The position numbers and the translations under genes were made by a program. Source: Gymnogyps californianus (taxonomy: Eukaryota > Chordata > Aves > Accipitriformes > Cathartidae). From it: a stretch of DNA of 64,000 bases. Every line of letters begins with the position of its first letter. Positions within the stretch are counted from its first letter, which is position 1. Below the pieces are notes generated by a model. It had not been told where the DNA came from. It made no database searches and saw only the letters and a list, made by a program, of their open reading frames with translations. This document shows, piece by piece, positions 13,058-49,800 of this stretch. The stretch is taken from positions 19,410,937-19,474,936 of the forward strand of contig NC_059475.1 of assembly GCF_018139145.2 (NCBI RefSeq). The letters run 5' to 3'.

Positions 13058-13063
13058 TTTAAT
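13058..13063 (-). promoter_or_regulatory. Possible MUC2 polyadenylation signal (ATTAAA)
   Basis: An ATTAAA hexamer on the minus strand about 225 bp past the stop codon. I saw no AATAAA on that strand closer to the stop. One hexamer in AT-rich DNA is weak evidence; the true 3' end may lie further on. Confidence 0.25.
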
Positions 13064-13288
13064 CATTCAGAGAAAATAAGCTGATTATAAAAGGACCCAA
13101 AAGGCTGTGCACTTGGAAGAATACAAATTTGTGTTCTTATTTTGTGCACAAATAAATAGAGCATTGTTAAAAATAATCAGAGAACAAACAGGATGCAGTA
13201 ACTGGGAAAAGCAAAGTTCAAAAGTAGTCAAGGAAGATGAGAATGGTGCATAGTCCTTTTAGTTGAATGCTGCTATGTTTTTTGCCCT

Positions 13289-16200: not shown

Positions 16201-16826
16201 CTCAACCCACGAGTTGGGGTTTGGTTTTTTTTTTTCCTCTGAATCTCTCCCACATCCCACTGGGTGGGGGGAGTGAGCAAGGGGCTGCATGGTGCTCAGC
16301 TGCTGGCTGGGGTTAAACCACAAGTATGCATGGTGTTACTGGCAGCCTACTGACTGAACAGCTTGTGTTTCTGTAACATTCAAGAAAACATGGTTCTTGT
16401 TCAGACAGGACCCTGCACAAAGCAGTCAGCAAGGACTTTGTATCTCAGTGCTGGCCAGTGTTTTGGCTACTGAGAGACAGCTGCCATTATAAGCCTTGAA
16501 CTCTTACCCAGATATCTTATTTTATACACTCTATAGGTCTGTGCATGGATGCAGCAGAAACTTTTGCCCTTGGGACTGAGAAACTTTGGTGAAAGGTCAT
16601 CAGAGCTTAATTTGACTTTTGTTGCTAGTTAGGTGGCTGAACTAAACCGAAGTAATCTATGCATTGAGTAGAGAGTAAGTCTTCCATATTTACTTACAGG
16701 TTTGCAGCTCTCCTCATTGAATGCCGGGCAGGTAATCTCAGATGTGGAAGAGATAAGCTGGTTGTGGATATTCACACAGCTATAAATGGTGCAGTTGTTG
16801 TAAGGATCATTTTTAAACTCTCCAGG
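13289..16826 (-). CDS. MUC2: MUC2 exons: last VWC segment and C-terminal cystine knot, with stop
   Basis: Four exons: 16826-16698 ([20 protein letters not shown], ends NEESCKP), 15401-15362 (40 bp, [13 protein letters not shown]), 15070-14941 ([30 protein letters not shown]) and 13544-13289 ([42 protein letters not shown] stop at 13289-13291). The last three form the CTCK domain, which in mucins makes the C-terminal disulfide dimer in the ER. The tail after the last cysteine pair is basic ([12 protein letters not shown]), as in mammalian MUC2. The intron between the first two exons holds a solo LTR. Confidence 0.92.
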
Positions 16827-25800: not shown

Positions 25801-28800
25801 ACACCAGCTATTTGGGGAGTAATGTCTAAGGTGATTATGTGCATGCATTGTGACTGTATGCATTTTTTCTATCTTCCACCAGTTTTTCAGCCATGTATAA
25901 TTTTTATCCCTGCAGATCTACTGAGCAAGTTGGGACATCAAAGCTGCGAGGAGGCTTTAGAAATGTACAAGACATTAGCTTGTCTGTGTAAGAGATGGAG
26001 GGTTCCAAAAAACTCAGAACTCTGAGTCAAATTTCACGAGCATTTGAATGTGGTGATCTGTTTCACAGTCCTCTCCTGAAACCAGACTATGACCAAGTAT
26101 GACTCATTCCAAACTTGGACTAGTTCAGCCCTGTGGTTTCTTGTTGGGCTGCACTGTACACACAGAAACAACTTTTCCCCACTCTGGACCTATTCAAAAG
26201 CAGAAACATAAAAGATAGTTTAGCACCACTTAGCCCTTGGTCACCTCTTCATCAAAGCTATCCTACAATAAAGAGAAATATTAAGCTGTGATCTAACTCC
26301 TTGAAGAAACCCTTTTAAAAGTATCCTTAAAGAACTAATAGCAGTATATAAGCTATCAAACCAAATATCATTGGAAGTCATACTGATACCCAAGAAAACA
26401 TAAAGAAATAGAATGGACTGATACTTCCTTTTCTATCCAGGTTAATACCTACTCTGTATGTTACTAACATTGAAATTATGTGCCTAGTCTCCATCCAAAG
26501 CAGAACGTTAAAAAAACTCATGAAATCTACCCACCGCATAAGATTCATTAGGTAAAATAGAACAATTTCTTCCAGGAGTGGTTGGTGGTGGACTTGTAGT
26601 TGAACTTGAAGCGCTGAGTGGAGTAACTGTACTGTATGTAGAACTTCCTGCAATGGAGACTGCACTTGATGTTGCAGTTGGCCCAGAAGTACTAGTTGAG
26701 CCAGGGGAAACAATTTCGGAGGTGGTGGTGGTGGTGGTTGCAGTGATTGTGGCAAAATTAGTAGAGGTTGTTCCTGAAGTGGTGGTAAAAGATTCTGTTG
26801 GAGTTGTACCAGAGGTGGTGACTGCCACGGGGCTTGTTGACACTGATGGTGGTGATACAGTCGTGCTGGCTGTAGGCTCCGGGGAAGATGGTCCTGAGGT
26901 TGTGGTGCTGATGGCGGTGGTGGGTGATCTTGTTGGAGGGCTCCCGGTCCTTGTGGTAGTGGTCTCTTGGCTAGATGTTTCCATCACTATTGTGGTGCTG
27001 TGGGGAGTGGATCTTGAGGGTGTGGGGGCCAAAGTAGTGGTTTTGGAGGTCGATCCTGTTTCAGTGACTCCAGAGGTGGTGACTGTCACTGGGCTTGTTG
27101 ACACTGATGGTGGTGATACAGTCGTGCTGGCTGTAGGCTCCAGGGAAGATGGTCCTGAGGTTGTGCTGACGGTGGTGGTAGGCGATCCTGTTGGAGGGCT
27201 CCCAGTCCTTGTGGTAGTGGTCTCTTGGCTAGATGTTTCCGTTATTATTGTGGTGCTGTGGGAAGTGGATCTTGAGGGTGTGGGGGCCAAAGTAGTGGTT
27301 TTGGAGGTCGATCCTGTTTCAGTGACTCCAGAGGTGGTGACTGTCACTGGGCTTGTTGACACTGATGGTGGTGATACAGTAGTGCTGGCTGTAGGCTCCG
27401 GGGAAGATGGTCCTGAGGTTGTGGTGCTGATGGTGGTGGTGGGTGATCTTGTTGGAGGGCTCCCAGTCCTTGTGGTAGTGGTCTCTTGGCTAGATGTTTC
27501 CGTCACTATTGTGGTGCTGTGGGGAGTGGATCTTGAGGGTGTGGGGGCCAAAGTGGTGGTTTTGGAGGTCGATCCTGTTTCAGTGACTCCAGAGGTGGTG
27601 ACTGTCACTGGGCTTGTTGACACTGATGGTGGTGATACAGTAGTGCTGGCTGTAGGCTCCGGGGAAGATGGTCCTGAGGTTGTGCTGACGGTGGTGGTAG
27701 GCGATCCTGTTGGAGGGCTCCCAGTCCTTGTGGTAGTGGTCTCTTGGCTAGATGTTTCCGTTATTATTGTGGTGCTGTGGGAAGTGGATCTTGAGGGTGT
27801 GGGGGCCAAAGTAGTGGTTTTGGAGGTCGATCCTGTTTCAGTGACTCCAGAGGTGGTGACTGTCACTGGGCTTGTTGACACTGATGGTGGTGATACAGTA
27901 GTGCTGGCTGTAGGCTCCGGGGAAGATGGTCCTGAGGTTGTGGTGCTGATGGTGGTGGTGGGTGATCTTGTTGGAGGGCTCCCAGTCCTTGTGGTAGTGG
28001 TCTCTTGGCTAGATGTTTCCATTACTATTGTGGTGCTGTGGGGAGTGGATCTTGAGGGTGTGGGGGCCAAAGTAGTGGTTTTGGAGGTCGATCCTGTTTC
28101 AGTGACTCCAGAGGTGGTGACTGTCACTGGGCTTGTTGACACTGATGGTGGTGATACAGTCGTGCTGGCTGTAGGCTCCGGGGAAGATGGTCCTGAGGTT
28201 GTGGTGCTGATGGTGGTGGTGGGTGATCTTGTTGGAGGGCTCCCAGTCCTTGTGGTAGTGGTCTCTTGGCTAGATGTTTCCGTCACTATTGTGGTGCTGT
28301 GGGGAGTGGATCTTGAGGGTGTGGGGGCCAAAGTGGTGGTTTTGGAGGTCGATCCTGTTTCAGTGACTCCAGAGGTGGTGACTGTCACTGGGCTTGTTGA
28401 CACTGATGGTGGTGATACAGTAGTGCTGGCTGTAGGCTCCGGGGAAGATGGTCCTGAGGTTGTGCTGACGGTGGTGGTAGGCGATCCTGTTGGAGGGCTC
28501 CCAGTCCTTGTGGTAGTGGTCTCTTGGCTAGATGTTTCCGTTATTATTGTGGTGCTGTGGGAAGTGGATCTTGAGGGTGTGGGGGCCAAAGTAGTGGTTT
28601 TGGAGGTCGATCCTGTTTCAGTGACTCCAGAGGTGGTGACTGTCACTGGGCTTGTTGACACTGATGGTGGTGATACAGTAGTGCTGGCTGTAGGCTCCGG
28701 GGAAGATGGTCCTGAGGTTGTGGTGCTGATGGTGGTGGTGGGTGATCTTGTTGGAGGGCTCCCAGTCCTTGTGGTAGTGGTCTCTTGGCTAGATGTTTCC

Positions 28801-31800
28801 ATTACTATTGTGGTGCTGTGGGGAGTGGATCTTGAGGGTGTGGGGGCCAAAGTAGTGGTTTTGGTGGTCGATCCTGTTTCAGTGACTCCAGAGGTGGTGA
28901 CTGTCACTGGGCTTGTTGATACCGATGGTGTTGACCGTTGAATAGTGGTGCTTATGGTAGACGCTCTACTTTCTATTTCTGTCGTTCTAGTTGTTGGCAG
29001 TGGGGTAGCTGAAGGTGTAACTGTAGTACTCATCGTTGTTGCTGTTCCTGATTCAGATGTTGTATCCTCTTTAAGACAGGGAGAAAACACAGTAGTTTAG
29101 TTTAAGTAAGTAGGCAAATTGCATTTGTTATTACCTTCATTTCATTTTTAATAAGCAAATGAAATTCAAAAAACCTAAGCATAGGGTATTTAGATAGGAA
29201 TAAAGCAGAAACTGTTTTATTAATGGCTTTTGCATAACAGAGGGATTATTTTAAAAATCTCCTACATGTTGCATGGGAGACATTGATGTAAACACTTTAT
29301 CAATGATCAATGTCAGATGGAACAGCTGTCCGTAGTATTAAAACTTTATACTACAGAGAAAAGTTCAGCAGTCCTAAATACAGGGGAATTCATTGAGTTT
29401 ATCAGTGAACTCTTTGATTAATTCTGTATTACTGTCATGCTATATTCTATGGATAGACCACTGTTCCCTGTGCTACTTCATGTGGCATGTTCATACCAGC
29501 ATTGATTATGCTCAGAGTCATTTGATTCTGCTGAAACTGAGCAGTTGCTGGGGCAATCTGTATTCCATACCTAACTCCCAGGCCTTTAAGACTACTCACC
29601 CACAAGCTATTTTTGCATGGTAGGAACCCTAAATTGACTTTTCTGCTTTTTCCTTCTCACATGACAAAGCCAGTTTTCATTATGGGCCCTAATGCAGGCT
29701 CCTTTAAAACAGTTTTTGATTAGCATTTTATAAATTGCTCACGATTCTCAGAGACCAGCCTCAGAACCATTTGTTTGTGCTTTTACAGCATGATGTAAGA
29801 GACACATGGCAGATAGAGAAGCACTGTGCACATCATGAGTGCATTCATAATGCTGGAGGATAGGAGGAAGTAAGATATGCTGCTTCTGCGCACACAGTCC
29901 ACAAGGACAGTCCTTCAACTAAAATTAATTCACATTTGGGTGAGGACAGGCAAACTACTTCTTGTTCAGAAAGAAATATAGAAAAATATGGTATACTGTC
30001 AAGAAGCAGATTGACTAGGATGTTAGGGGGTTTCACACCCTAACAAGGTGTGTTTAGAGGGTAGGTTTAGCTTGGACATAAGGAAGAAATTTTTTGTGAT
30101 GAGGGTGGTGAGACACTGGAACAGGTTTCCCAGAGAAGTTGTGGATGCCCAATCATTGGAAGCGTTCAAGGTCAGGTTGAATGGGGCTCTGAGCAACCTG
30201 ATGTAGTGAAAGATGTCCCCGCCCATAGCAGGATGGGGTTGGACTAAAAGACCTTTAAAAAGGTCCCTTCAAACCCAAACTATTCTATGATTCCACGATT
30301 TGTTTGGAAATATACATCAACTACACTCCCTCAGAGCACAAAAATTAAGACACACGTTAAGCTGCCGATAGACCTTGATTTCTCCCATAGCAAGGCAACA
30401 AACGACAACGCAGCCAGAGAATTACTTATTGCTTCTGAAGTCGGAGGCAGCGAGGTTTTGGTGATTATTGTTGGTGTTGGGAACGTACTTTCAGGAGTTG
30501 GGGTGGGTGCTGGTGTGCTAGGAACAGTCATCGTTGTCGCCAGGGTGCTGCTGGTTGTGCTGCTGGGGGGCATCGTGGTGGTGGCGGTGCTGCTGGGAGG
30601 CTCCGATGGCGTTGGCGTTGGCGTGGGAGTGGTTGTCGATACGGGTGGAGAGGACACTGTGCTCGCTGTGGACGAAGGTGGGGCGGTCGTGGTGCTCGTG
30701 GTGGTAGTTGTAATACACTCTGGTACGGCGGGGAGGCAGCAGACCCTGATCTCGTAATTGAGGCAGACCGGCATCGGTATTATGCCTCCTATGACCTGAT
30801 CACGATTGTTACAGATGAGCCCTGTGTTAACATTGCATTCCACGGTCTGCCCTAAATCTGCAATGGGAGTGTGAGGGAACTGCTTTGCTCTGCATGAAAT
30901 ATCCTCAGCTTTCGCGCAGACCCAGGAGGCGTTGCTCTTCAGAATATTCTCAAAGGTTTCGTAGTCACCACCGTTTCTGTCAGAACTATGTGGGTAGCTC
31001 ACATCAATCCAGTCCGTCCAGGTGCAGTCACATTCTGGGGGACAACAACAAGAGGAACAATTAGAAACAGCCGGAACAGAGACAAGAAGCCGGGGCACCA
31101 GCACACTCGTGGGTGGTGCTCTGGGCGTCCACTGCACACAAGGGTGCCCCTCGGGCACTGCCACACCAGTCAGCCAACCCTGGCCACAACAAAGCGCACT
31201 TGTGTGGGCAGGTCTTCCCTTCTTGGCCCTACAAAACACGTTAGGGCCAAATCAGGACACAGGCACTGCCGAGCCATGTGCGTCTCCCCCTCGCAGCTAG
31301 GGCACATTGCTGTATTGGGCTTCTCATGTGCAAAAACCACTCACATAAGGGCAACATATGAGGTGGAGCAGGACTAAGCAGGGACTCCCGCCACTCCCTC
31401 ACCTTCTCGTGCCACTCACACCACTTCACCATCTCAGGGAGAAATCAAACACCAGGAGGGGTCGTGACCACAAAGGAAGCAGGCACAGGACACACACTGC
31501 TGCCAAAACGTCAGCTTGCTTCCCAGCAGTGCGGGGTAAGCTGGAGAACAACCCTCATGGGAATGCTGGGAGAGCCCGACTGCCCAGAGCTTTGGTCCAT
31601 AGCAAGGGGCAACCCGCGGTCTGAAACCTTTCCCAAACCCTGCCGGGGAAAACCTTCGAAGCTTCCTACAGCCAGAACTGCAGGTGAGTGGCAGCAACGG
31701 CCACAGAGGCAACGCAAGAGAAGAAAGGGAAGAAAGTCTGCACAGCTGCGCCCAAACCGGCGCCTGAAATGACGGTGCCACAAAACCAAGCCCCACTCCC

Positions 31801-34800
31801 GTCCCACACCATGGGTCCCACTGAGTACATTCTCTCCAGCTGAAGGACGAGGTCCAACAGCAGCAAAAGCAAGATTTCCCATCAGCTCAGTATCTGTCTA
31901 AGCTGGGCAGAGGCACAAGGATGAAAAAACTCCTAGTGTTCCCAATAACCAAAGGAATGGAACCGAGAACCAGAAACGTGTTGTGCACTCTCCCTCCTAA
32001 ATGGGGAGCTCATTACAGGACCCACTCTACTCCACTCTTGTGAGACCCCACCTGGAGTACTACATCCAGCTCTGGGGTCCCCAGTACAAGGAAAGACATG
32101 AAACTGTTGGAGCGGGTCCAGAGGAAGGCCACAAAAATGATCAGAGGGCTAGAACACCTCCCCTGTGAAAAGAGGCTAAGAGAGTTGGCGTTGTTCAGCC
32201 GGGAGAAGAGAAGGCTCCGGGGACAGCTTCTTGCGGCCTTTCAGTATATAAGGGGGGCTTAGAAGAAAGACAGAGAGACAGGTTTTACCAAGCCTTGAGG
32301 TCACAGGACAAGGGGCAACGGTCTTAAACTGAAAGAGGGCAGGTTTAGCTTGGACATAAGGAAGAAATTTTTTGTGATGAGGGTGGTGAGACACTGGAAC
32401 AGGTTTCCCAGAGAAGTTGTGGATGCCCAATCATTGGAAGCGTTCAAGGTCAGGTTGAATGGGGCTCTGAGCAACCTGATGTAGTGAAAGATGTCCCCGC
32501 CCATAGCAGGATGGGGTTGGACTAAAAGACCTTTAAAAAGGTCCCTTCAAACCCAAACTATTCTATGATTCCACGATTTGTTTGGAAATATACATCAACT
32601 ACACTCCCTCAGAGCACAAAAATTAAGACACACGTTAAGCTGCCAATAGACCTTGATTTCTCCCATAGCAAGGCAACAAACGACAACGCAGCCAGAGAAT
32701 TACTTATTGCTTCTGAAGTCGGAGGCAGCGAGGTTTTGGTGATTATTGTTGGTGTTGGGAACGTACTTTCAGGAGTTGGGGTGGGTGCTGGTGTGCTAGG
32801 AACAGTCATCGTTGTCGCCAGGGTGCTGCTGGTTGTGCTGCTGGGGGGCATCGTGGTGGTGGCGGTGCTGCTGGGAGGCTCCGATGGCGTTGGCGTTGGC
32901 GTGGGAGTGGTTGTCGATACGGGTGGAGAGGACACTGTGCTCGCTGTGGACGAAGGTGGGGCGGTCGTGGTGCTCGTGGTGGTAGTTGTAATACACTCTG
33001 GTACGGCGGGGAGGCAGCAGACCCTGATCTCGTAATTGAGGCAGACCGGCATCGGTATTATGCCTCCTATGACCTGATCACGATTGTTACAGATGAGCCC
33101 TGTGTTAACATTGCATTCCACGGTCTGCCCTAAATCTGCAATGGGAGTGTGAGGGAACTGCTTTGCTCTGCATGAAATATCCTCAGCTTTCGCGCAGACC
33201 CAGGAGGCGTTGCTCTTCAGAATATTCTCAAAGGTTTCGTAGTCACCACCGTTTCTGTCAGAACTATGTGGGTAGCTCACATCAATCCAGTCCGTCCAGG
33301 TGCAGTCACATTCTGGGGGACAACAACAAGAGGAACAATTAGAAACAGCCGGAACAGAGACAAGAAGCCGGGGCACCAGCACACTCGTGGGTGGTGCTCT
33401 GGGCGTCCACTGCACACAAGGGTGCCCCTCGGGCACTGCCACACCAGTCAGCCAACCCTGGCCACAACAAAGCGCACTTGTGTGGGCAGGTCTTCCCTTC
33501 TTGGCCCTACAAAACACGTTAGGGCCAAATCAGGACACAGGCACTGCCGAGCCATGTGCGTCTCCCCCTCGCAGCTAGGGCACATTGCTGTATTGGGCTT
33601 CTCATGTGCAAAAACCACTCACATAAGGGCAACATATGAGGTGGAGCAGGACTAAGCAGGGACTCCCGCCACTCCCTCACCTTCTCGTGCCACTCACACC
33701 ACTTCACCATCTCAGGGAGAAATCAAACACCAGGAGGGGTCGTGACCACAAAGGAAGCAGGCACAGGACACACACTGCTGCCAAAACGTCAGCTTGCTTC
33801 CCAGCAGTGCGGGGTAAGCTGGAGAACAACCCTCATGGGAATGCTGGGAGAGCCCGACTGCCCAGAGCTTTGGTCCATAGCAAGGGGCAACCCGCGGTCT
33901 GAAACCTTTCCCAAACCCTGCCGGGGAAAACCTTCGAAGCTTCCTACAGCCAGAACTGCAGGTGAGTGGCAGCAACGGCCACAGAGGCAACGCAAGAGAA
34001 GAAAGGGAAGAAAGTCTGCACAGCTGCGCCCAAACCGGCGCCTGAAATGACGGTGCCACAAAACCAAGCCCCACTCCCGTCCCACACCATGGGTCCCACT
34101 GAGTACATTCTCTCCAGCTGAAGGACGAGGTCCAACAGCAGCAAAAGCAAGATTTCCCATCAGCTCAGTATCTGTCTAAGCTGGGCAGAGGCACAAGGAT
34201 GAAAAAACTCCTAGTGTTCCCAATAACCAAAGGAATGGAACCGAGAACCAGAAACGTGTTGTGCACTCTCCCTCCTAAATGGGGAGCTCATTACAGGACC
34301 CACTCTACTCCACTCTTGTGAGACCCCACCTGGAGTACTACATCCAGCTCTGGGGTCCCCAGTACAAGGAAAGACATGAAACTGTTGGAGCGGGTCCAGA
34401 GGAAGGCCACAAAAATGATCAGAGGGCTAGAACACCTCCCCTGTGAAAAGAGGCTAAGAGAGTTGGCGTTGTTTCAGCCGGGAGAAGAGAAGGCTCCGGG
34501 GACAGCTTCTTGCGGCCTTTCAGTATATAAGGGGGGCTTAGAAGAAAGACAGAGAGACAGGTTTTACCAAGCCTTGAGGTCACAGGACAAGGGGCAACGG
34601 TCTTAAACTGAAAGAGGGCAGGTTTAGCTTGGACATAAGGAAGAAATTTTTTGTGATGAGGGTGGTGAGACACTGGAACAGGTTTCCCAGAGAAGTTGTG
34701 GATGCCCAATCATTGGAAGCGTTCAAGGTCAGGTTGAATGGGGCTCTGAGCAACCTGATGTAGTGAAAGATGTCCCCGCCCATAGCAGGATGGGGTTGGA

Positions 34801-37800
34801 CTAAAAGACCTTTAAAAAGGTCCCTTCAAACCCAAACTATTCTATGATTCCACGATTTGTTTGGAAATATACATCAACTACACTCCCTCAGAGCACAAAA
34901 ATTAAGACACACGTTAAGCTGCCAATAGACCTTGATTTCTCCCATAGCAAGGCAACAAACGACAACGCAGCCAGAGAATTACTTATTGCTTCTGAAGTCG
35001 GAGGCAGCGAGGTTTTGGTGATTATTGTTGGTGTTGGGAACGTACTTTCAGGAGTTGGGGTGGGTGCTGGTGTGCTAGGAACAGTCATCGTTGTCGCCAG
35101 GGTGCTGCTGGTTGTGCTGCTGGGGGGCATCGTGGTGGTGGCGGTGCTGCTGGGAGGCTCCGATGGCGTTGGCGTTGGCGTGGGAGTGGTTGTCGATACG
35201 GGTGGAGAGGACACTGTGCTCGCTGTGGACGAAGGTGGGGCGGTCGTGGTGCTCGTGGTGGTAGTTGTAATACACTCTGGTACGGCGGGGAGGCAGCAGA
35301 CCCTGATCTCGTAATTGAGGCAGACCGGCATCGGTATTATGCCTCCTATGACCTGATCACGATTGTTACAGATGAGCCCTGTGTTAACATTGCATTCCAC
35401 GGTCTGCCCTAAATCTGCAATGGGAGTGTGAGGGAACTGCTTTGCTCTGCATGAAATATCCTCAGCTTTCGCGCAGACCCAGGAGGCGTTGCTCTTCAGA
35501 ATATTCTCAAAGGTTTCGTAGTCACCACCGTTTCTGTCAGAACTATGTGGGTAGCTCACATCAATCCAGTCCGTCCAGGTGCAGTCACATTCTGGGGGAC
35601 AACAACAAGAGGAACAATTAGAAACAGCCGGAACAGAGACAAGAAGCCGGGGCACCAGCACACTCGTGGGTGGTGCTCTGGGCGTCCACTGCACACAAGG
35701 GTGCCCCTCGGGCACTGCCACACCAGTCAGCCAACCCTGGCCACAACAAAGCGCACTTGTGTGGGCAGGTCTTCCCTTCTTGGCCCTACAAAACACGTTA
35801 GGGCCAAATCAGGACACAGGCACTGCCGAGCCATGTGCGTCTCCCCCTCGCAGCTAGGGCACATTGCTGTATTGGGCTTCTCATGTGCAAAAACCACTCA
35901 CATAAGGGCAACATATGAGGTGGAGCAGGACTAAGCAGGGACTCCCGCCACTCCCTCACCTTCTCGTGCCACTCACACCACTTCACCATCTCAGGGAGAA
36001 ATCAAACACCAGGAGGGGTCGTGACCACAAAGGAAGCAGGCACAGGACACACACTGCTGCCAAAACGTCAGCTTGCTTCCCAGCAGTGCGGGGTAAGCTG
36101 GAGAACAACCCTCATGGGAATGCTGGGAGAGCCCGACTGCCCAGAGCTTTGGTCCATAGCAAGGGGCAACCCGCGGTCTGAAACCTTTCCCAAACCCTGC
36201 CGGGGAAAACCTTCGAAGCTTCCTACAGCCAGAACTGCAGGTGAGTGGCAGCAACGGCCACAGAGGCAACGCAAGAGAAGAAAGGGAAGAAAGTCTGCAC
36301 AGCTGCGCCCAAACCGGCGCCTGAAATGACGGTGCCACAAAACCAAGCCCCACTCCCGTCCCACACCATGGGTCCCACTGAGTACATTCTCTCCAGCTGA
36401 AGGACGAGGTCCAACAGCAGCAAAAGCAAGATTTCCCATCAGCTCAGTATCTGTCTAAGCTGGGCAGAGGCACAAGGATGAAAAAACTCCTAGTGTTCCC
36501 AATAACCAAAGGAATGGAACCGAGAACCAGAAACGTGTTGTGCACTCTCCCTCCTAAATGGGGAGCTCATTACAGGACCCACTCTACTCCACTCTTGTGA
36601 GACCCCACCTGGAGTACTACATCCAGCTCTGGGTCCCCAGTACAAGGAAAGACATGAAACTGTTGGAGCGGGTCCAGAGGAAGGCCACAAAAATGATCAG
36701 AGGGCTAGAACACCTCCCCTGTGAAAAGAGGCTAAGAGAGTTGGCGTTGTTCAGCCGGGAGAAGAGAAGGCTCCGGGGACAGCTTCTTGCGGCCTTTCAG
36801 TATATAAGGGGGGCTTAGAAGAAAGACAGAGAGACAGGTTTTACCAAGCCTTGAGGTCACAGGACAAGGGGCAACGGTCTTAAACTGAAAGAGGGCAGGT
36901 TTAGCTTGGACATAAGGAAGAAATTTTTTGTGATGAGGGTGGTGAGACACTGGAACAGGTTTCCCAGAGAAGTTGTGGATGCCCAATCATTGGAAGCGTT
37001 CAAGGTCAGGTTGAATGGGGCTCTGAGCAACCTGATGTAGTGAAAGATGTCCCCGCCCATAGCAGGATGGGGTTGGACTAAAAGACCTTTAAAAAGGTCC
37101 CTTCAAACCCAAACTATTCTATGATTCCACGATTTGTTTGGAAATATACATCAACTACACTCCCTCAGAGCACAAAAATTAAGACACACGTTAAGCTGCC
37201 AATAGACCTTGATTTCTCCCATAGCAAGGCAACAAACGACAACGCAGCCAGAGAATTACTTATTGCTTCTGAAGTCGGAGGCAGCGAGGTTTTGGTGATT
37301 ATTGTTGGTGTTGGGAACGTACTTTCAGGAGTTGGGGTGGGTGCTGGTGTGCTAGGAACAGTCATCGTTGTCGCCAGGGTGCTGCTGGTTGTGCTGCTGG
37401 GGGCATCGTGGTGGTGGCGGTGCTGCTGGGAGGCTCCGATGGCGTTGGCGTTGGCGTGGGAGTGGTTGTCGATACGGGTGGAGAGGACACTGTGCTCGCT
37501 GTGGACGAAGGTGGGGCGGTCGTGGTGCTCGTGGTGGTAGTTGTAATACACTCTGGTACGGCGGGGAGGCAGCAGACCCTGATCTCGTAATTGAGGCAGA
37601 CCGGCATCGGTATTATGCCTCCTATGACCTGATCACGATTGTTACAGATGAGCCCTGTGTTAACATTGCATTCCACGGTCTGCCCTAAATCTGCAATGGG
37701 AGTGTGAGGGAACTGCTTTGCTCTGCATGAAATATCCTCAGCTTTCGCGCAGACCCAGGAGGCGTTGCTCTTCAGAATATTCTCAAAGGTTTCGTAGTCA

Positions 37801-40800
37801 CCACCGTTTCTGTCAGAACTATGTGGGTAGCTCACATCAATCCAGTCTGTCCAGGTGCAGTCACATTCTGGGGGACAACAACAAGAGGAACAATTAGAAA
37901 CAGCCGGAACAGAGACAAGAAGCCGGGGCACCAGCACACTCGTGGGTGGTGCTCTGGGCGTCCACTGCACACAAGGGTGCCCCTCGGGCACTGCCACACC
38001 AGTCAGCCAACCCTGGCCACAACAAAGCGCACTTGTGTGGGCAGGTCTTCCCTTCTTGGCCCTACAAAACACGTTAGGGCCAAATCAGGACACAGGCACT
38101 GCCGAGCCATGTGCGTCTCCCCCTCGCAGCTAGGGCACATTGCTGTATTGGGCTTCTCATGTGCAAAAACCACTCACATAAGGGCAACATATGAGGTGGA
38201 GCAGGACTAAGCAGGGACTCCCGCCACTCCCTCACCTTCTCGTGCCACTCACACCACTTCACCATCTCAGGGAGAAATCAAACACCAGGAGGGGTCGTGA
38301 CCACAAAGGAAGCAGGCACAGGACACACACTGCTGCCAAAACGTCAGCTTGCTTCCCAGCAGTGCGGGGTAAGCTGGAGAACAACCCTCATGGGAATGCT
38401 GGGAGAGCCCGACTGCCCAGAGCTTTGGTCCATAGCAAGGGGCAACCCGCGGTCTGAAACCTTTCCCAAACCCTGCCGGGGAAAACCTTCGAAGCTTCCT
38501 ACAGCCAGAACTGCAGGTGAGTGGCAGCAACGGCCACAGAGGCAACGCAAGAGAAGAAAGGGAAGAAAGTCTGCACAGCTGCGCCCAAACCGGCGCCTGA
38601 AATGACGGTGCCACAAAACCAAGCCCCACTCCCGTCCCACACCATGGGTCCCACTGAGTACATTCTCTCCAGCTGAAGGACGAGGTCCAACAGCAGCAAA
38701 AGCAAGATTTCCCATCAGCTCAGTATCTGTCTAAGCTGGGCAGAGGCACAAGGATGAAAAAACTCCTAATGTTCCCAATAACCAAAGGAATGGAACCGAG
38801 AACCAGAAACGTGTTGTGCACTCTCCCTCCTAAATGGGAGCTCATTACAGGACCCACTCTACTCCACTCTTGTGAGACCCCACCTGGAGTACTACATCCA
38901 GCTCTGGGGTCCCCAGTACAAGGAAAGACATGAAACTGTTGGAGCGGGTCCAGAGGAAGGCCACAAAAATGATCAGAGGGCTAGAACACCTCCCCTGTGA
39001 AAAGAGGCTAAGAGAGTTGGCGTTGTTCAGCCGGGAGAAGAGAAGGCTCCGGGGACAGCTTCTTGCGGCCTTTCAGTATATAAGGGGGGCTTAGAAGAAA
39101 GACAGAGAGACAGGTTTTACCAAGCCTTGAGGTCACAGGACAAGGGGCAACGGTCTTAAACTGAAAGAGGGCAGGTTTAGCTTGGACATAAGGAAGAAAT
39201 TTTTTGTGATGAGGGTGGTGAGACACTGGAACAGGTTTCCCAGAGAAGTTGTGGATGCCCAATCATTGGAAGCGTTCAAGGTCAGGTTGAATGGGGCTCT
39301 GAGCAACCTGATGTAGTGAAAGATGTCCCCGCCCATAGCAGGATGGGGTTGGACTAAAAGACCTTTAAAAAGGTCCCTTCAAACCCAAACTATTCTATGA
39401 TTCCACGATTTGTTTGGAAATATACATCAACTACACTCCCTCAGAGCACAAAAATTAAGACACACGTTAAGCTGCCAATAGACCTTGATTTCTCCATAGC
39501 AAGGCAACAAACGACAACGCAGCCAGAGAATTACTTATTGCTTCTGAAGTCGGAGGCAGCGAGGTTTTGGTGATTATTGTTGGTGTTGGGAACGTACTTT
39601 CAGGAGTTGGGGTGGGTGCTGGTGTGCTAGGAACAGTCATCGTTGTCGCCAGGGTGCTGCTGGTTGTGCTGCTGGGGGCATCGTGGTGGTGGCGGTGCTG
39701 CTGGGAGGCTCCGATGGCGTTGGCGTTGGCGTGGGAGTGGTTGTCGATACGGGTGGAGAGGACACTGTGCTCGCTGTGGACGAAGGTGGGCGGTCGTGGT
39801 GCTCGTGGTGGTAGTTGTAATACACTCTGGTACGGCGGGGAGGCAGCAGACCCTGATCTCGTAATTGAGGCAGACCGGCATCGGTATTATGCCTCCTATG
39901 ACCTGATCACGATTGTTACAGATGAGCCCTGTGTTAACATTGCATTCCACGGTCTGCCCTAAATCTGCAATGGGAGTGTGAGGGAACTGCTTTGCTCTGC
40001 ATGAAATATCCTCAGCTTTCGCGCAGACCCAGGAGGCGTTGCTCTTCAGAATATTCTCAAAGGTTTCGTAGTCACCACCGTTTCTGTCAGAACTATGTGG
40101 GTAGCTCACATCAATCCAGTCCGTCCAGGTGCAGTCACATTCTGGGGGACAACAACAAGAGGAACAATTAGAAACAGCCGGAACAGAGACAAGAAGCCGG
40201 GGCACCAGCACACTCGTGGGTGGTGCTCTGGGCGTCCACTGCACACAAGGTGCCCCTCGGGCACTGCCACACCAGTCAGCCAACCCTGGCCACAACAAAG
40301 CGCACTTGTGTGGGCAGGTCTTCCCTTCTTGGCCCTACAAAACACGTTAGGGCCAAATCAGGACACAGGCACTGCTGAGCCATGTGCGTCTCCCCCTCGC
40401 AGCTAGGGCACATTGCTGTATTGGGCTTCTCATGTGCAAAAACCACTCACATAAGGGCAACATATGAGGTGGAGCAGGACTAAGCAGGGACTCCCGCCAC
40501 TCCCTCACCTTCTCGTGCCACTCACACCACTTCACCATCTCAGGGAGAAATCAAACACCAGGAGGGTCGTGACCACAAAGGAAGCAGGCACAGGACACAC
40601 ACTGCTGCCAAAACGTCAGCTTGCTTCCCAGCAGTGCGGGGTAAGCTGGAGAACAACCCTCATGGGAATGCTGGGAGAGCCCGACTGCCCAGAGCTTTGG
40701 TCCATAGCAAGGGGCAACCCGCGGTCTGAAACCTTTCCCAAACCCTGCCGGGGAAAACCTTCGAAGCTTCCTACAGCCAGAACTGCAGGTGAGTGGCAGC

Positions 40801-43800
40801 AACGGCCACAGAGGCAACGCAAGAGAAGAAAGGGAAGAAAGTCTGCACAGCTGCGCCCAAACCGGCGCCTGAAATGACGGTGCCACAAAACCAAGCCCCA
40901 CTCCCGTCCCACACCATGGGTCCCACTGAGTACATTCTCTCCAGCTGAAGGACGAGGTCCAACAGCAGCAAAAGCAAGATTTCCCATCAGCTCAGTATCT
41001 GTCTAAGCTGGGCAGAGGCACAAGGATGAAAAAACTCCTAATGTTCCCAATAACCAAAGGAATGGAACCGAGAACCAGAAACGTGTTGTGCACTCTCCCT
41101 CCTAAATGGGGAGCTCATTACAGGACCCACTCTACTCCACTCTTGTGAGACCCCACCTGGAGTACTACATCCAGCTCTGGGGTCCCCAGTACAAGGAAAG
41201 ACATGAAACTGTTGGAGCGGGTCCAGAGGAAGGCCACAAAAATGATCAGAGGGCTAGAACACCTCCCCTGTGAAAAGAGGCTAAGAGAGTTGGCGTTGTT
41301 CAGCCGGGAGAAGAGAAGGCTCCGGGACAGCTTCTTGCGGCCTTTCAGTATATAAGGGGGGCTTAGAAGAAAGACAGAGAGACAGGTTTTACCAAGCCTT
41401 GAGGTCACAGGACAAGGGGCAACGGTCTTAAACTGAAAGAGGGCAGGTTTAGCTTGGACATAAGGAAGAAATTTTTTGTGATGAGGGTGGTGAGACACTG
41501 GAACAGGTTTCCCAGAGAAGTTGTGGATGCCCAATCATTGGAAGCGTTCAAGGTCAGGTTGAATGGGGCTCTGAGCAACCTGATGTAGTGAAAGATGTCC
41601 CCGCCCATAGCAGGATGGGGTTGGACTAAAAGACCTTTAAAAAGGTCCCTTCAAACCCAAACTATTCTATGATTCCACGATTTGTTTGGAAATATACATC
41701 AACTACACTCCCTCAGAGCACAAAAATTAAGACACACGTTAAGCTGCCAATAGACCTTGATTTCTCCCATAGCAAGGCAACAAACGACAACGCAGCCAGA
41801 GAATTACTTATTGCTTCTGAAGTCGGAGGCAGCGAGGTTTTGGTGATTATTGTTGGTGTTGGGAACGTACTTTCAGGAGTTGGGGTGGGTGCTGGTGTGC
41901 TAGGAACAGTCATCGTTGTCGCCAGGGTGCTGCTGGTTGTGCTGCTGGGGGGCATCGTGGTGGTGGCGGTGCTGCTGGGAGGCTCCGATGGCGTTGGCGT
42001 TGGCGTGGAGTGGTTGTCGATACGGGTGGAGAGGACACTGTGCTCGCTGTGGACGAAGGTGGGGCGTGTCGTGGTGCTCGTGGTGGTAGTTGTAATACAC
42101 TCTGGTACGGCGGGGAGGCAGCAGACCCTGATCTCGTAATTGAGGCAGACCGGCATCGGTATTATGCCTCCTATGACCTGATCACGATTGTTACAGATGA
42201 GCCCTGTGTTAACATTGCATTCCACGGTCTGCCCTAAATCTGCAATGGGAGTGTGAGGGAACTGCTTTGCTCTGCATGAAATATCCTCAGCTTTCGCGCA
42301 GACCCAGGAGGCGTTGCTCTTCAGAATATTCTCAAAGGTTTCGTAGTCACCACCGTTTCTGTCAGAACTATGTGGGTAGCTCACATCAATCCAGTCTGTC
42401 CAGGTGCAGTCACATTCTGGGGGACAACAACAAGAGGAACAATTAGAAACAGCCGGAACAGAGACAAGAAGCCGGGGCACCAGCACACTCGTGGGTGGTG
42501 CTCTGGGCGTCCACTGCACACAAGGGTGCCCCTCGGGCACTGCCACACCAGTCAGCCAACCCTGGCCACAACAAAGCGCACTTGTGTGGGCAGGTCTTCC
42601 CTTCTTGGCCCTACAAACACGTTAGGGCCAAATCAGGACACAGGCACTGCCGAGCCATGTGCGTCTCCCCTCGCAGCTAGGGCACATTGCTGTATTGGGC
42701 TTCTCATGTGCAAAAACCACTCACATAAGGGCAACATATGAGGTGGAGCAGGACTAAGCAGGGACTCCCGCCACTCCCTCACCTTCTCGTGCCACTCACA
42801 CCACTTCACCATCTCAGGGAGAAATCAAACACCAGGAGGGGTCGTGACCACAAAGGAAGCAGGCACAGGACACACACTGCTGCCAAAACGTCAGCTTGCT
42901 TCCCAGCAGTGCGGGGTAAGCTGGAGAACAACCCTCATGGGAATGCTGGGAGAGCCCGACTGCCCAGAGCTTTGGTCCATAGCAAGGGGCAACCCGCGGT
43001 CTGAAACCTTTCCCAAACCCTGCCGGGGAAAACCTTCGAAGCTTCCTACAGCCAGAACTGCAGGTGAGTGGCAGCAACGGCCACAGAGGCAACGCAAGAG
43101 AAGAAAGGGAAGAAAGTCTGCACAGCTGCGCCCAAACCGGCGCCTGAAATGACGGTGCCACAAAACCAAGCCCACTCCCGTCCCACACCATGGGTCCCAC
43201 TGAGTACATTCTCTCCAGCTGAAGGACGAGGTCCAACAGCAGCAAAAGCAAGATTTCCCATCAGCTCAGTATCTGTCTAAGCTGGGCAGAGGCACAAGGA
43301 TGAAAAAACTCCTAATGTTCCCAATAACCAAAGGAATGGAACCGAGAACCAGAAACGTGTTGTGCACTCTCCTCCTAAATGGGGAGCTCATTACAGGACC
43401 CACTCTACTCCACTCTTGTGAGACCCCACCTGGAGTACTACATCCAGCTCTGGGGTCCCCAGTACAAGGAAAGACATGAAACTGTTGGAGCGGGTCCAGA
43501 GGAAGGCCACAAAAATGATCAGAGGGCTAGAACACCTCCCCTGTGAAAAGAGGCTAAGAGAGTTGGCGTTGTTCAGCCGGGAGAAGAGAAGGCTCCGGGG
43601 ACAGCTTCTTGCGGCCTTTCAGTATATAAGGGGGGCTTAGAAGAAAGACAGAGAGACAGGTTTTACCAAGCCTTGAGGTACAGGACAAGGGGCAACGGTC
43701 TTAAACTGAAAGAGGGCAGGTTTAGCTTGGACATAAGGAAGAAATTTTTTGTGATGAGGGTGGTGAGACACTGGAACAGGTTTCCCAGAGAAGTTGTGGA

Positions 43801-46800
43801 TGCCCAATCATTGGAAGCGTTCAAGGTCAGGTTGAATGGGGCTCTGAGCAACCTGATGTAGTGAAAGATGTCCCCGCCCATAGCAGGATGGGGTTGGACT
43901 AAAAGACTTTAAAAGTTTCAAACAAATATCTATGATTCACGATTGTTTGGAAATAAATCAACTACACTTCAGAGAAAAAATTAAGAACACGTTAAGCTGC
44001 AAGACCTTGATTCTCCATAGCAAGGCAACAAACGAAACGCAGCAGAGAATTACTTATTGCTTCTGAAGTCGGAGGCAGCGAGGTTGGTGATTATTGTTGG
44101 TGTGGGAAGTACTTTCGGAGTTGGGGTGGGTGCTGGTGTGCTAGGACAGTCATCGTTGTCGCAGGGTGTGCTGGTTGTGCTGCTGGGGGGATCGTGGTGG
44201 TGGCGGTGTGCTGGGAGGCTCCGATGGCGTTGGCGTTGGCGTGGGAGTGGTTGTCGATATGGGTGGAGAGGACACTGTGCTCGTTGTGGATGAAGGTGGG
44301 GCTGTGAGAAACAGCAAGGACAGAGAAAACAGACAAAGGTGCAACATGCATGAGTGGGACGCGATATGCACTGAACAGAAGTTATGCGTTAGGCAGCTGC
44401 CACAAATCTATAGCTGGCAGCCCACTTTTATCACAGTAAAGGCCTGTATCACTAGGCGTTCCTTTCTGGCCACAGAAAGCAGACTAGTTGCAAATCAGTG
44501 CACTGGCAGGGTCATGACAATCCTTTCCTAGCAAAGAGACTAGGCATGTTGCTGTAATGTGCTTGTCACTAAATCAAAAATACCTACCAATAGGTAAGAC
44601 ATGAGGAGGAGTAAGGCTCTGTGAGGCTTTCTATCTCTGCCTTATTGCTTAGAACACCTTCCCATCTCATGGAGTAAGAACTGAGAGGGGAAGCTGTGGT
44701 CTGAGAAGGAAGCATGCACAGGAATATGTTCCTGCCTGATTGTCATGTTATTTCCCTGTGGTGCAATGTCAGCCTGATGAAGAGGTTCACAGAGTACTAG
44801 TGGATCTCAGCAACCAAAGACCACAGTCCACACCAAGTGGCAGCCTGCAGAGTGAAAATGTTCCCGAAAGCCTGCCAGGGGAATCCTTCCTTCCTAGATC
44901 TATAACCACAGGCAAACGTTAGCACAGCGGGAAAGCAGGAGGAGAAAGGGAAGGAATTCTGCACAGCCCCACCAGACAATGCCTAATATGATGGTACTCT
45001 AAATCAAGGCCTATTCTAATCTCACGCAAAAGGTCCTTCTGAGAATCTTCTTTCCAGCAGAAGGACAGAGCTCCAAACCAGCATAAGTAAGACGTCCTGC
45101 CAGATCAGTATCTGCTGTGGAGATGACATGCCTTTAGTAGATGACAGCCCTTTATTTCTCCTGTGGCAAAGCAAGAGCAGAGAGTATTGGTCTGCTAAAT
45201 ACCTGAAGAGGTTGAAGTTACTGGGGTGGTGACTGATGGTGTGAATTCGCTTGTGATGGTTGGGGTGGGTATGGGTGTGGTGGTAATTGCTGTTGGCTGC
45301 CTGGCTGTAGTGGTGATGCGTACTGTCGTGCTGGTGGTGGTTGAAGTTGTAGTTGGTGTTGGACTCAGCGTACTCGGAGTCTCACAAGAAATTTCACGCC
45401 GCTCACAACAGTTTACCCTGATTTCATAATTATAGCAAAGTTGCCACATAGTTGCATCTTGCTCCTCATTTTTACAGATTAGTCCATATGTAACATTACA
45501 CTCTACTTTCTGGCTAAGTTCCTCTAAACTCACATCGGGGTTATCTTTAGCCCTGCATTCAATTTTTTCAGGAGCTTTACATATTTTGTTTCCATGTTCA
45601 TTTCTTATTGCATCGTAGGTTTCATAGTCACCGCCATCTTCTTCAGGTTTACTAACATCAAACCACTCAGTCCAATTACAGATTAATCCAAAGCATGGAG
45701 CTGCAAGAAAAGAGAGAGATTCAGCATCTGAGCTTACAAAGAACATTCTGAGAAGATTAATTTTGTATTCTATTCCATTAAGGACTAGAACAATGCATTG
45801 CAACTTGTAATTTTTGCAAGAGTAAAGAGTTCTAAAATTGGTTCTATATTACCAGGTTTTTCAACAGGAAGCTTCACATCAAAATAAAATCACCGAGCTG
45901 AAGCCTTTAAAGGTCTTTCTTCTCTCTATATTTATCACACTTTTGCAATTTTAAAAAATTATTTATTTTTGTTTTAAATATATTTTTCTGTAGTGCCATC
46001 TTTAATTTACTCTTCCTTTAAATGTTCCTTTGACATTTTTTAACAACTTAGTTTTCTATTTAAAACTTACTTGTAATTACTGGAGGACTTGTAGTGGTAA
46101 CTGAAACAGAAAAAAAAGATTACTCCATCATCTGCAAGCTTTAGAAAAAAATATAATAGTAGTTTTAAATATCCTAATTATGTTTTTTTGCTGAGACTAC
46201 TGAGACAATTTCTACTATCCCAGCAGGATATTGAGATGCTAACATGTTTTTCAGAATTAGGAAGGCACCCTGTACATTTGCAGTTACAATTTCTTCCATG
46301 AGAAGTAAATCAACTCAAAGTGTTAAAAATCTTTCTTAGTGTAGTCTGATAAAACTATTCATAAGTATCGCTCTATTTGTGTCAACTATAAGCCCATATA
46401 CTTGTACATTCTATCTTTAAAGTATTTTCCTTAAAGAAAATAATTTTTAGATGCACTTTATTGAAGATTTACCTGTGGTGGTAAGAGTACTGGTAGGAAA
46501 GGAGGTTGAAATGGTTGTAGGTGAAGTAGATGTCAGACAAGGATAAGTACTTCCAACAACTATAGAACCATTTTCTGCACAAATGTATGTTATACATATA
46601 TTTCCATCCTGTATTTGTGCCACAGTTTCACCCACTTCATAACTCGTTCCATTGATGACACAAGGACACCCTGTAAGAAAGATCTTTACTGTGCAATGTT
46701 TCTACTACCAGGTAAGAGACAAAGGCAAAATACTTATGGACAAGTAAGCATTTACATGAGTCATGTGTGCTCCTTTCAGAGCTATACCTGGAGCTTAGAT

Positions 46801-49800
46801 CTAATACATTGCACTAATTTATCTTTACATTTAGAGGAACATTAAAACATATTTAATAAAGCCCTGCATAAAATGCTGAGAAGAACAGACTTACAAACCA
46901 GGTTTCAAAATGTTCTGAGAGAAATAACAACTGCAATTTACTATCTATCATCTGACACTTTTCTATAATACTACATGTTCTGGGAGGGCAAACTCTTGTA
47001 GTGAAATCCATTAGTTTGGATATGGGAGATGGGGAGAAAGAATAAAGGGACATGACAAAGGTTGAACAAGAATTACTAACAGCAAGGTTCAACAAAAGTG
47101 CTGCCCAATTTTCTTTGGCCATAACTTTCACTTTCACTGGAAAGAATTATTCCAAATCAGTACTAAGTCTTTTGTAGAGACAGACGTAGCAGTTCTATGC
47201 ATTTTTTTCTTTTTATTTGTAGAAAAAAAGAAACGTTATTTACCTAGGATTGGTGTACACTGTATGGATCCTGAAGGGCCACAGACACTAAAAGCAATAT
47301 TTTCAAAAATTAAAATGTTGCAGATGTTTTATGGCACCCGTTAGCAGAGCCAAAAGCACAGAAACATAGAAATTTGTCACTTATCTTCATTCATACTACT
47401 GGATATTTTTCTGGGTGTAATATATTCCAATATTGTCTATCATTATTTCATTCAAACTAAGTCATCACTTTCATTCTTTAAGTACAATATCTTAAAACTA
47501 TCATGAACCGCTTTGTGTTGCAAGTTGCAATAGTGCAATAATAACTGTTTTTCAGAGCAGTGATCTCACAGCTAGATCAGGGTTTTTTTGTCTCTGGTCA
47601 CCATGTGGAGTCATAGATGTCAGTGCTATCATTAGTAAGGCCCTAGGAATGAGCAGTTAGGACTTAACTATCTCTTTCAGGGCTAGTACAGATCTTTTCA
47701 GATTACAGTGATTTTGAAATCCCAGTTTTAAGTGAGAGTGCAAGGTAGAGTAGCCCCTCTCTTCCCAAAGAGCAATGAGAATCAAAAGGTTGTTCTAGAG
47801 ACACACCTAGGTTTCACGCCATCATATAATTCATGACACTTCGAAGAGTATATTTAATGAATACACTTATTATAATGACACTATCAACCTGAAATCTGGG
47901 TTATGATGGCTTTGGAAAATTATGAATGAAAAGTTTAGAATCTATACATATTTTAAGAAGTGCAGCATTTTTTGAGTTTAAGTCTCAACTGGAATAAATG
48001 GCATTGTTCCTCTGATTTGTATAGATAAATGCTAGAATATGCCAGCTCTTCAGTTGAAGTTGCATGTCTATTTGCTTGAGGCCCAGTAAAGTAAATGAGG
48101 GGCTCAGCATACATAAATTCTTTCCTGAACTACTGCAATTGTTTCTGCATGTTTTATATACCATTTTGTACAGTTCTCTTCTGTGGCTATTTCGTTCCCA
48201 GGGGGAACATAAATTCCATTGATGTAACACCAACATTGATCTTCAGGCACACATTCCTTTGTCTCTTCATTATAAATAGGCTTGTCCTTAGGGCATCTGG
48301 GGTAGCAACCTGTTGATGACAAGTAGAACAGTATACAGGACGAAGAAAAAGTGTGAAGAGTTAATTCAATGATAGGATACCTTCTGAAGGTAAATGATTC
48401 TCACTGAATCAAGCATAGTGAAAGGAATCGAAAATTTCCAATTCAAATTAATCCTTGGACAACTGGTCTTTCCAAAAGACTTAAATCAGACAAGTCTCAT
48501 TGATAATACTGGGGTGAGGAGGATTAAATAAGAGTTTAGTCATGAAAACTAGGGAAGTTGTTTTTTCCTAGTTCAAGATCTTGGAGAAACCCCAAATTTA
48601 TAGAAATTTCTATGGGCAGCTAGTAATTTTAAGAGAAAGAAACATCCTGCTTTTTCTACAGATATTGAAATGTGATCACTATATCAATAATACTTTTGTG
48701 AAGAATATGGAAGTGGATTCATTAACAAACAGGTTTTTCACTACATTTATTGGAACACTAGACCTTGTTTATGTGCCTTTAATAGACCAGGTATCTCCAC
48801 CCCAAACAGATAATTTATCTGTATTTTTCCATACCCTTCGCCAGTGACGCACACCCCACCTGCACGGGTTTAATTGTCTGTCAATTCTCATTGCATTTTT
48901 CATGTAAATACACTTTTAAAAAATTATTGTGTCCTGCTTCCAAACAAACTCTCATAAAATCCAATTCTTAATTACATAAAGACTTCTTTATACTGCACTG
49001 GAGTTCTAAATATCCTATAAACTGAATGACCATGTAATTAACGGGTACTTAAAAGTCACTTCACACTGCCAGACTGGACTAAAGATGTCCTAGTGTGCTC
49101 TATATTTCCAATGAAGATTAAAAAAAAAAAAATTTAGAAAGATAATTGGATATATAATAATCTGCCTTCTGACACTTTCCAAATCTTCCTATTAATCTAA
49201 GACAATCCATTTCAAAACATAGTTAACTTTTTTTTTACTTTTTTTTTAATATATATTTTGGTTATGGGTTTGGGGGTTTTTTTGTTTTGTTACCAGCAGT
49301 TCAAGGATTAAAATAACAAAGTCAAACTCTGGGCATTTCTTTCCAATCCCTAAACTGGAGGTAACTGCTTCCAGTCCAGATCAAAAAGACTGTATGGCCA
49401 AAACTGTGGCTGTTTTCTCCAACTTTATCATGTGGTAAACCAGAAGATATTTGTAAAGTCATTCACATTCTTGGATCATTGCAGTCCCCATAACGTGAAA
49501 TTCATCTTCAGTTATCAAGCACAAGGACTTTCACCTACTAATACATTTATAAATGAAATACACTAAAAATGGAGGTAGTCCCCAGTAGCCCTCAGACAAC
49601 ATTTTGTGGTCTCTGTTAAGAATCCAATATATAGCAGCACCAGTGTGTCTGATATCAAAGATATTTTCAATTGTAAAGATAGGAAGATGCTGCATATTAA
49701 TCTAATAAAGTCAAGATGGATCTGATGCATAAAGAATGATAAGGTTAAAAACCCCCAACTATCTGTAACTTACTTCTTTGCCATGTAAAATGTTTTCCTT

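Follow-up and report, generated by a model that had tools for sequence, protein, structure and literature searches.

How does a mucin gene come to carry six almost identical copies of one exon, and what keeps the copies alike? The question is raised by a 64,000-nucleotide stretch of Gymnogyps californianus DNA (NCBI RefSeq assembly GCF_018139145.2, contig NC_059475.1, positions 19,410,937 to 19,474,936), here called the window, the minus strand of which covers most of a gene identified by its exon plan as bird MUC2. An initial annotation, made from the letters alone, had described there six near-identical tandem units of about 2.28 kb, each with an exon coding for a CysD2 domain and a stretch rich in proline, threonine and serine (PTS), and had treated them as the product of a single amplification event. 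The single event was not borne out by our comparison with other birds, which found the array in many bird lineages, mostly uniform within and different between species. We consider it likely that the window holds a genuine old bird exon array, kept uniform within species by unequal crossing-over and gene conversion while its copy number changes.

Comparison of the window with itself confirmed the six units, which lie head to tail with starts at 30056, 32334, 34613, 36890, 39166 and 41438 and measure 2272–2279 bp. Any two of them differ by 0–4 substitutions per ~2.27 kb (mean 2.13 over 15 pairs), corresponding to an inter-unit divergence of ~0.09%, and this near-identity, maintained in register over 14.2 kb, ruled out chance matching as the source of the array. 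Alignment to the unit consensus showed substitutions in five columns, along with 15 deletions and two insertions, each of a single base. The substituted columns form no repeating pattern among the units: one separates units 1–3 from units 4–6, another sets apart units 4 and 6, and two are found only in unit 1, which lies at the array's 3′ end. Within the window DNA, the introns and the CR1-like insert of the units are as uniform as the exon. For this reason protein selection alone was rejected as the cause of unit identity, and recombination was inferred instead. The low edge of the array lies in a CR1-like element and its high edge near a splice acceptor, suggesting that the array may have originated by unequal exchange between repeats.

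Each unit contains one CysD2+PTS exon with phase 1 at both ends, which starts with AATGTGACTGC after an AG acceptor and ends in GCAATAA before gtaattctct. The initial annotation had assigned a 203-codon phase-1 exon to every unit; this description held for the phase-1 ends and for units 1–3, which are clean, while units 4 and 5 are frameshifted and unit 6 carries a deletion and an insertion that cancel each other and leave ~20 codons out of frame. The WTDW motif and ten cysteines (counted by eye) are present in each of the six translations. In the assembly, the reading frames of units 4 and 5 end in stops, as would be expected of a decaying array in which real frameshifts lead to a truncated mucin. 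We regard such decay as extremely improbable. Runs of at least three equal bases account for 0.212 of the unit and hold 14 of the 15 deletions (p 4e-9), and because the deletions concentrate in these homopolymer runs the frameshifts are best read as sequencing errors; real frameshifts were rejected on this pattern. Moreover, the CysD part and the splice sites are intact in all six exons, and a similar shift apparently occurs in exon 19, outside the array. The exon 19 counterpart (56046–56196, minus strand) is 151 bases long compared to 152 in chicken, and its frame switches inside; the one-base shortfall is probably a sequencing error in a G run, akin to those of the array.

Next to the six units lies a partial copy. 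The initial annotation had counted the whole span 30055..44301 as six units; these reach 43710, and the remainder to 44305 proved to be a PTS-only partial copy that had been missed. By the coordinates of the alignment blocks, 43711–43906 is without difference from the unit consensus, 44209–44305 shows four substitutions and no gap, and a patch of poor sequence between them lacks 37 bases, of which 24 are C on the plus strand. The PTS-only exon starts at 44301 behind its own splice acceptor, and the intron upstream of it is only distantly paralogous to that of the array (69% over 304 columns). A seventh CysD2 exon at 43711–44305 was rejected, since the copy has no CysD. A corresponding CysD-less stretch, placed after CysD1 and before the CysD2 copies, is also present in the Morphnus, Aquila, Buteo, Accipiter, Harpia and Falco models, where, at exon borders that we inferred, it starts with APPSST in the raptor and Falco proteins (AAPSST in Buteo). 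Judged by these protein models, the PTS-only partial copy is a feature shared with these six birds, though damaged in the window.

To place the array among other birds, MUC2 models were drawn from three protein searches (0.55–1.75 times the query length, best 120 listed), and CysD were counted with a profile built from the bird MUC2 sequences found; as a positive control, chicken L7XFH1 scored four CysD, the published number. The initial annotation had proposed comparing CysD counts in related birds, and in this comparison 33 of the 57 species among the matches listed had at least three CysD, 13 had two and 11 had one. The species were assigned by hand with the best model for each (one of the 57 is the genus Amazona), leaving out short fragments and some matches (crane, ibis, turaco, pheasant, pigeon, duck and others). 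The top counts among the matches listed belonged to Morphnus guianensis (10), Tympanuchus pallidicinctus (8), and Aquila and Buteo (6 each), and the seven CysD predicted for the window would take third rank beside these models. The earlier comparison with human MUC2 was correct in that the human protein has two CysD, but human is not the nearest reference, given four in chicken, ten in Morphnus and eight in Tympanuchus. Copy number varied between species, the window representing one assembly. Five raptor models, with 2, 4, 5, 5 and 9 CysD2 copies, had a common layout consisting of CysD1, a CysD-less PTS stretch, n CysD2, a last copy with its own tail, and a large PTS region. An equine protein annotated as mucin-2 (P0054), which has seven CysD, was set aside as a possibly mis-named paralogue. 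Separately, the pheasant protein P0001 of Chrysolophus pictus has 17 CysD domains with 47–54% identity to those of the window, and is apparently part of another gel-forming mucin.

The five raptors revealed a strong contrast between uniformity within species and divergence between them. With the last copies excluded, unit pairs of the same species differed on average at 0.07 of 196 residues (maximum 1, 43 pairs), compared to 5.5 of 196 residues (minimum 2, 147 pairs) for pairs of different species. In all five, the PTS-only stretch was nearer to the units of its own species than to the same stretch of other species. A tree of 90 domain rows, built from 32 hand-picked proteins and the window (crane, kiwi and a crow fragment included), required 39 label changes, the minimum possible being 36 and the mean after shuffling 75.1. 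The array edges were less uniform: the two private columns of the window array lie in unit 1 and four substitutions lie at the start of its partial copy, and all three differences that set the Buteo PTS-only stretch apart from the units fall in the first 19 residues of the stretch.

The ends of the units added a further distinction. In the five raptors, the last copy alone ends in TIITKTPLPPSSEAI (TPVPP in Buteo), and the other copies end in TYTTTSS. The open-frame units of the window all carry a tail of the raptor last-copy type, and a copy of the last type may have been the source from which the window units spread. This tail, limited in raptors to one copy, would also fit a single recent duplication burst in the window bird without continuing homogenisation, as would the ~0.09% inter-unit divergence; birds mutate at ~2e-9 per site and year, a rate at which this divergence would, very roughly, put the common origin of the units some 0.2 million years ago. 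Nevertheless, the layout is shared with the five raptors, whose units are uniform within and different between species, the partial copy is found in them as well, and the high GC (guanine plus cytosine) content of the array intron, described below, suggests a long history. Taken together, these observations make a lone recent burst very unlikely and favor an old array with recurrent exchange among its units.

The array differs in base composition from the rest of the gene. GC content is 0.561 in the array intron, compared to a mean of 0.351 and a maximum of 0.431 in 34 other introns of the gene, and 0.468 in the intron adjoining the array. When the array intron was aligned to its paralogue, 33 sites had G/C in the array and A/T in the other intron and 16 sites showed the reverse (p 0.02; differences unpolarised), and a looser global alignment of the two introns gave 110 and 53 sites in the same directions. 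At fourfold sites, G/C was found at 25 of 41 positions in CysD2 and at 7 of 31 in CysD1 (p 0.0017). With the intron differences unpolarised and the fourfold sites of the gene mixed, the pattern is compatible with GC-biased gene conversion. The composition also bears on whether the array could be an assembly artefact, that is, the outcome of gap-filling errors or haplotype joining that multiplied one or a few real units. The near-identity of the units, the deletions (14 of the 15 in homopolymer runs) and the 37-base-missing patch at one array end are features that such an error could produce. However, the units carry five substituted columns with a non-repeating pattern, the same layout including the PTS-only copy is found in five raptor models, and the array intron has a GC content unlike the rest of the gene; we therefore judge an artefact to be unlikely.

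Several observations weigh against a real array homogenised over a long time. Galliforms (Tympanuchus, Coturnix, Numida and chicken) and Cygnus have two diverged CysD2 types, and in the tree the pair of copies from Athene noctua fails to group together; uniformity within species is, on these models, not universal. In the tree, 11 of 52 inner branches were starred and 22 of 52 were open, the latter number counting on the unfavorable side. Fourfold-site G/C is mixed (17 of 29 in exon 23, 15 of 35 in exon 48), and CpG in the array intron (0.40) exceeds the average of the other introns (0.17) without reaching their highest value (0.65). The array region contains sequence errors, the copy number of six is the figure of the assembly, and the window alone cannot separate recent duplication from homogenisation. 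The counts of the other birds are those of gene models, including the 11 of 57 with one CysD and the 13 of 57 with two, and low counts perhaps stem partly from incomplete assemblies.

The identity of the repeated domain was addressed by a PDB search, which returned the Mucin-5AC chain 8ov0 (86.3 bits) and the Mucin-2 chains 8s03 (85.4 bits) and 6tm6 (70.6 bits), the last two of which we take to be human MUC2 CysD2 and CysD1, respectively. In the tree, the array domain was clearly split from CysD1. Both results identify it by sequence as CysD2 rather than CysD1, in agreement with the label given in the initial annotation. An 11-residue loop of the window CysD2 resembles QKPGGVIPMAF of chain 8s03, and the same loop is kept, with variants, across bird CysD2 copies (33 genus-loop combinations listed). 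The CysD1 exon at 45203–45700 and the six intact CysD2 give a predicted total of seven CysD for the window MUC2, which supports the number proposed earlier.

The assignment of the gene to MUC2, likewise upheld, was made by searching the window for the chicken MUC2 exons, defined by their lengths and splice junctions (PMC3549977, Table 2). By splice junctions and length, 35 of the 46 tested chicken exons were recovered in order, 30 of the 35 with equal length; a counterpart of exon 54 was added later, outside these 35. Among the 46 tested, exons 31, 33 and 46 had no credible match in the window, exon 32 weakly matched an array exon, and the unmatched exons 5–11 would be expected at the window end or past it. 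The array is flanked by the exon 30 and exon 47 counterparts, and a join of exons 20–30 to the exon of unit 1 and on to the large PTS exon was free of stops over 1672 codons. Among the matches listed, the CysD-free region (query residues 1–450) was 96% identical to the mucin-2 of goshawk, eagle and buzzard (Accipitridae) and 95% identical to that of Neopsephotus, Pygoscelis and Strigops. The features of the gene and of the array are collected in Table 1.

Table 1. Features of the MUC2 gene and its CysD2 exon array in the window (coordinates are window positions; ORF, open reading frame).
Feature	Position	Strand	Basis
Counterparts of chicken MUC2 exons 47-51, 53, 55-64 (and 54)	13046..25364	-	Splice junctions, length
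Large PTS exon, 3′ of array in gene, 8.2 copies of 261-bp repeat	26535..29068	-	Repeat search, joined frame
Array of six complete units, low edge within CR1-like element	30056..43710	-	Self-comparison
CysD2 exon, unit 1, 609 bp, 203 codons, clean	30426..31034	-	Exon reading; PF13330 E 2.8e-26
Array intron of unit 1 without CR1-like part, GC 0.561	31035..31990	-	Limits set by eye
CR1-like element between units, one of the copies	31991..32580	+	67% identity to 61990-62227, ORF; limits set by eye
CysD2 exon, unit 2, 609 bp, 203 codons, clean	32704..33312	-	Exon reading
CysD2 exon, unit 3, 609 bp, 203 codons, clean	34983..35591	-	Exon reading
CysD2 exon, unit 4, 608 bp, frameshift in PTS part, stops	37260..37867	-	Exon reading, consensus comparison
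CysD2 exon, unit 5, 607 bp, frameshift in PTS part, stops	39535..40141	-	Exon reading, consensus comparison
CysD2 exon, unit 6, 609 bp, PTS part with a deletion plus an insertion	41808..42416	-	Exon reading, consensus comparison
Partial seventh unit copy; exon 44054-44301 PTS only, without CysD	43711..44305	-	Alignment to unit consensus
Patch of poor sequence in partial copy, 37 bases missing, no substitution	43907..44208		Alignment blocks
CysD1 exon, CysD1 and PTS, counterpart of chicken exon 30	45203..45700	-	Splice junctions as in chicken; PF13330 E 1.4e-29
Counterparts of chicken MUC2 exons 12-29	46071..61502	-	Splice junctions, length

Other repeats were found in and around the gene. Within the large PTS exon, 26809–28934 forms a tandem array of its own (8.2 copies of 261 bp, 95% match), and its shared 31-mers peak at offset 780 rather than 261, suggesting a higher-order repeat of three units. 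In a MUC2 intron, 51159–51424 holds 21.6 copies of AGGAG, a pure repeat (100%), and then an AAGAAA repeat. A further CR1-like element at 61990–62650 lies in the opposite orientation and is 67% identical to the copy in the units; CR1 is the family to which we presume that it and the element at 31991..32580 belong. Beyond the 3′ end of MUC2, a VWD-like exon at 320–661 (minus strand) matched IgGFc-binding protein (E 7.9e-32) and Mucin-5AC (E 2.8e-31), and is perhaps part of the next gel-forming mucin gene.

In the mechanism that we propose, unequal crossing-over and gene conversion would homogenise the units within a species while the copy number shifts. Because both ends of the consensus exon are in phase 1, gain or loss of a unit would leave the reading frame intact, a point of the initial annotation that the consensus exon supports. 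Each unit would add one CysD2 contact and one PTS linker, and chains with more units are predicted to offer more sites for cross-linking and to form a tighter gel. Going further, we raise tentatively, as a possibility that we find doubtful, that bird MUC2 acts as a self-homogenising dosage module, in which interchangeable CysD2 exons would be gained, lost or skipped in splicing to yield, from one gene, a ladder of mucins that differ in their number of cross-link sites, with gel tightness evolving, and perhaps being regulated, through the number of exons. Annotated goshawk isoforms with 4, 3, 2, 1 and 0 CysD2 form such a ladder, though the identical exons make the annotation ambiguous. In the goshawk set, P0180, P0184, P0187, P0197, P0198, P0032 and P0033 have 4, 3, 2, 1, 1, 0 and 0 CysD2, respectively, and the lengths of P0184, P0187, P0198 and P0033 change in steps of 196 residues; this series reflects either exon skipping or ambiguous annotation. 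More generally, the bird MUC2 models, reaching ten CysD among the matches listed, do not fit as a general rule the difference in CysD number drawn between the human respiratory mucins and MUC2 (see below), and the five raptors with 2, 4, 5, 5 and 9 CysD2 copies offer natural material for relating CysD dose to TGM3 cross-linking and mesh size.

A literature search, with subscription papers mostly outside its scope, found no such bird arrays or concerted evolution beyond two chicken papers. The array is not unique to the window bird, and both the chicken four-CysD case and the smaller-pore idea have already been published. Chicken MUC2 was reported to have at least three CysD (PMC1552070, 2006) and later four (PMC3549977, 2013), and more CysD were suggested to produce smaller pores (PMC3549977). 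Chicken MUC2 resembles the window in its gene and exon plan, in having more CysD than human MUC2 and in the repeats around its CysD exons; it differs in having four CysD compared to the seven predicted here and in its diverged CysD2 types (57–99% identity within chicken), and the accessible text of the chicken papers has no description of identical units, introns included, in a clean tandem array.

CysD number was called a notable difference between the human respiratory mucins, with nine and seven, and MUC2, with two (PMC11912381, 2025). In human MUC5AC, the Cys-domain copies vary between haplotypes (PMC11344006), making it another gel-forming mucin with Cys-domain copy variation; there, the variation resides in one large central exon of a respiratory mucin, whereas in the window exon+intron units of MUC2 are repeated and the variation is known from comparison between species only. 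The secreted CYS-domain protein CYSx12, which like the window MUC2 has many CYS domains per chain, reduced mesh size and hindered or slowed bacteria (PMC6861317); CYSx12 is a recombinant protein added to mucus, whereas the window array is part of MUC2 itself. Finally, human MUC2 CysD2 is reported to form weak homotypic dimers that are stabilised by TGM3 (PMC11933400, citing Recktenwald 2024). It is, by sequence, the same domain type as that of the array (85.4 bits), present in one copy in human and in six in the window.

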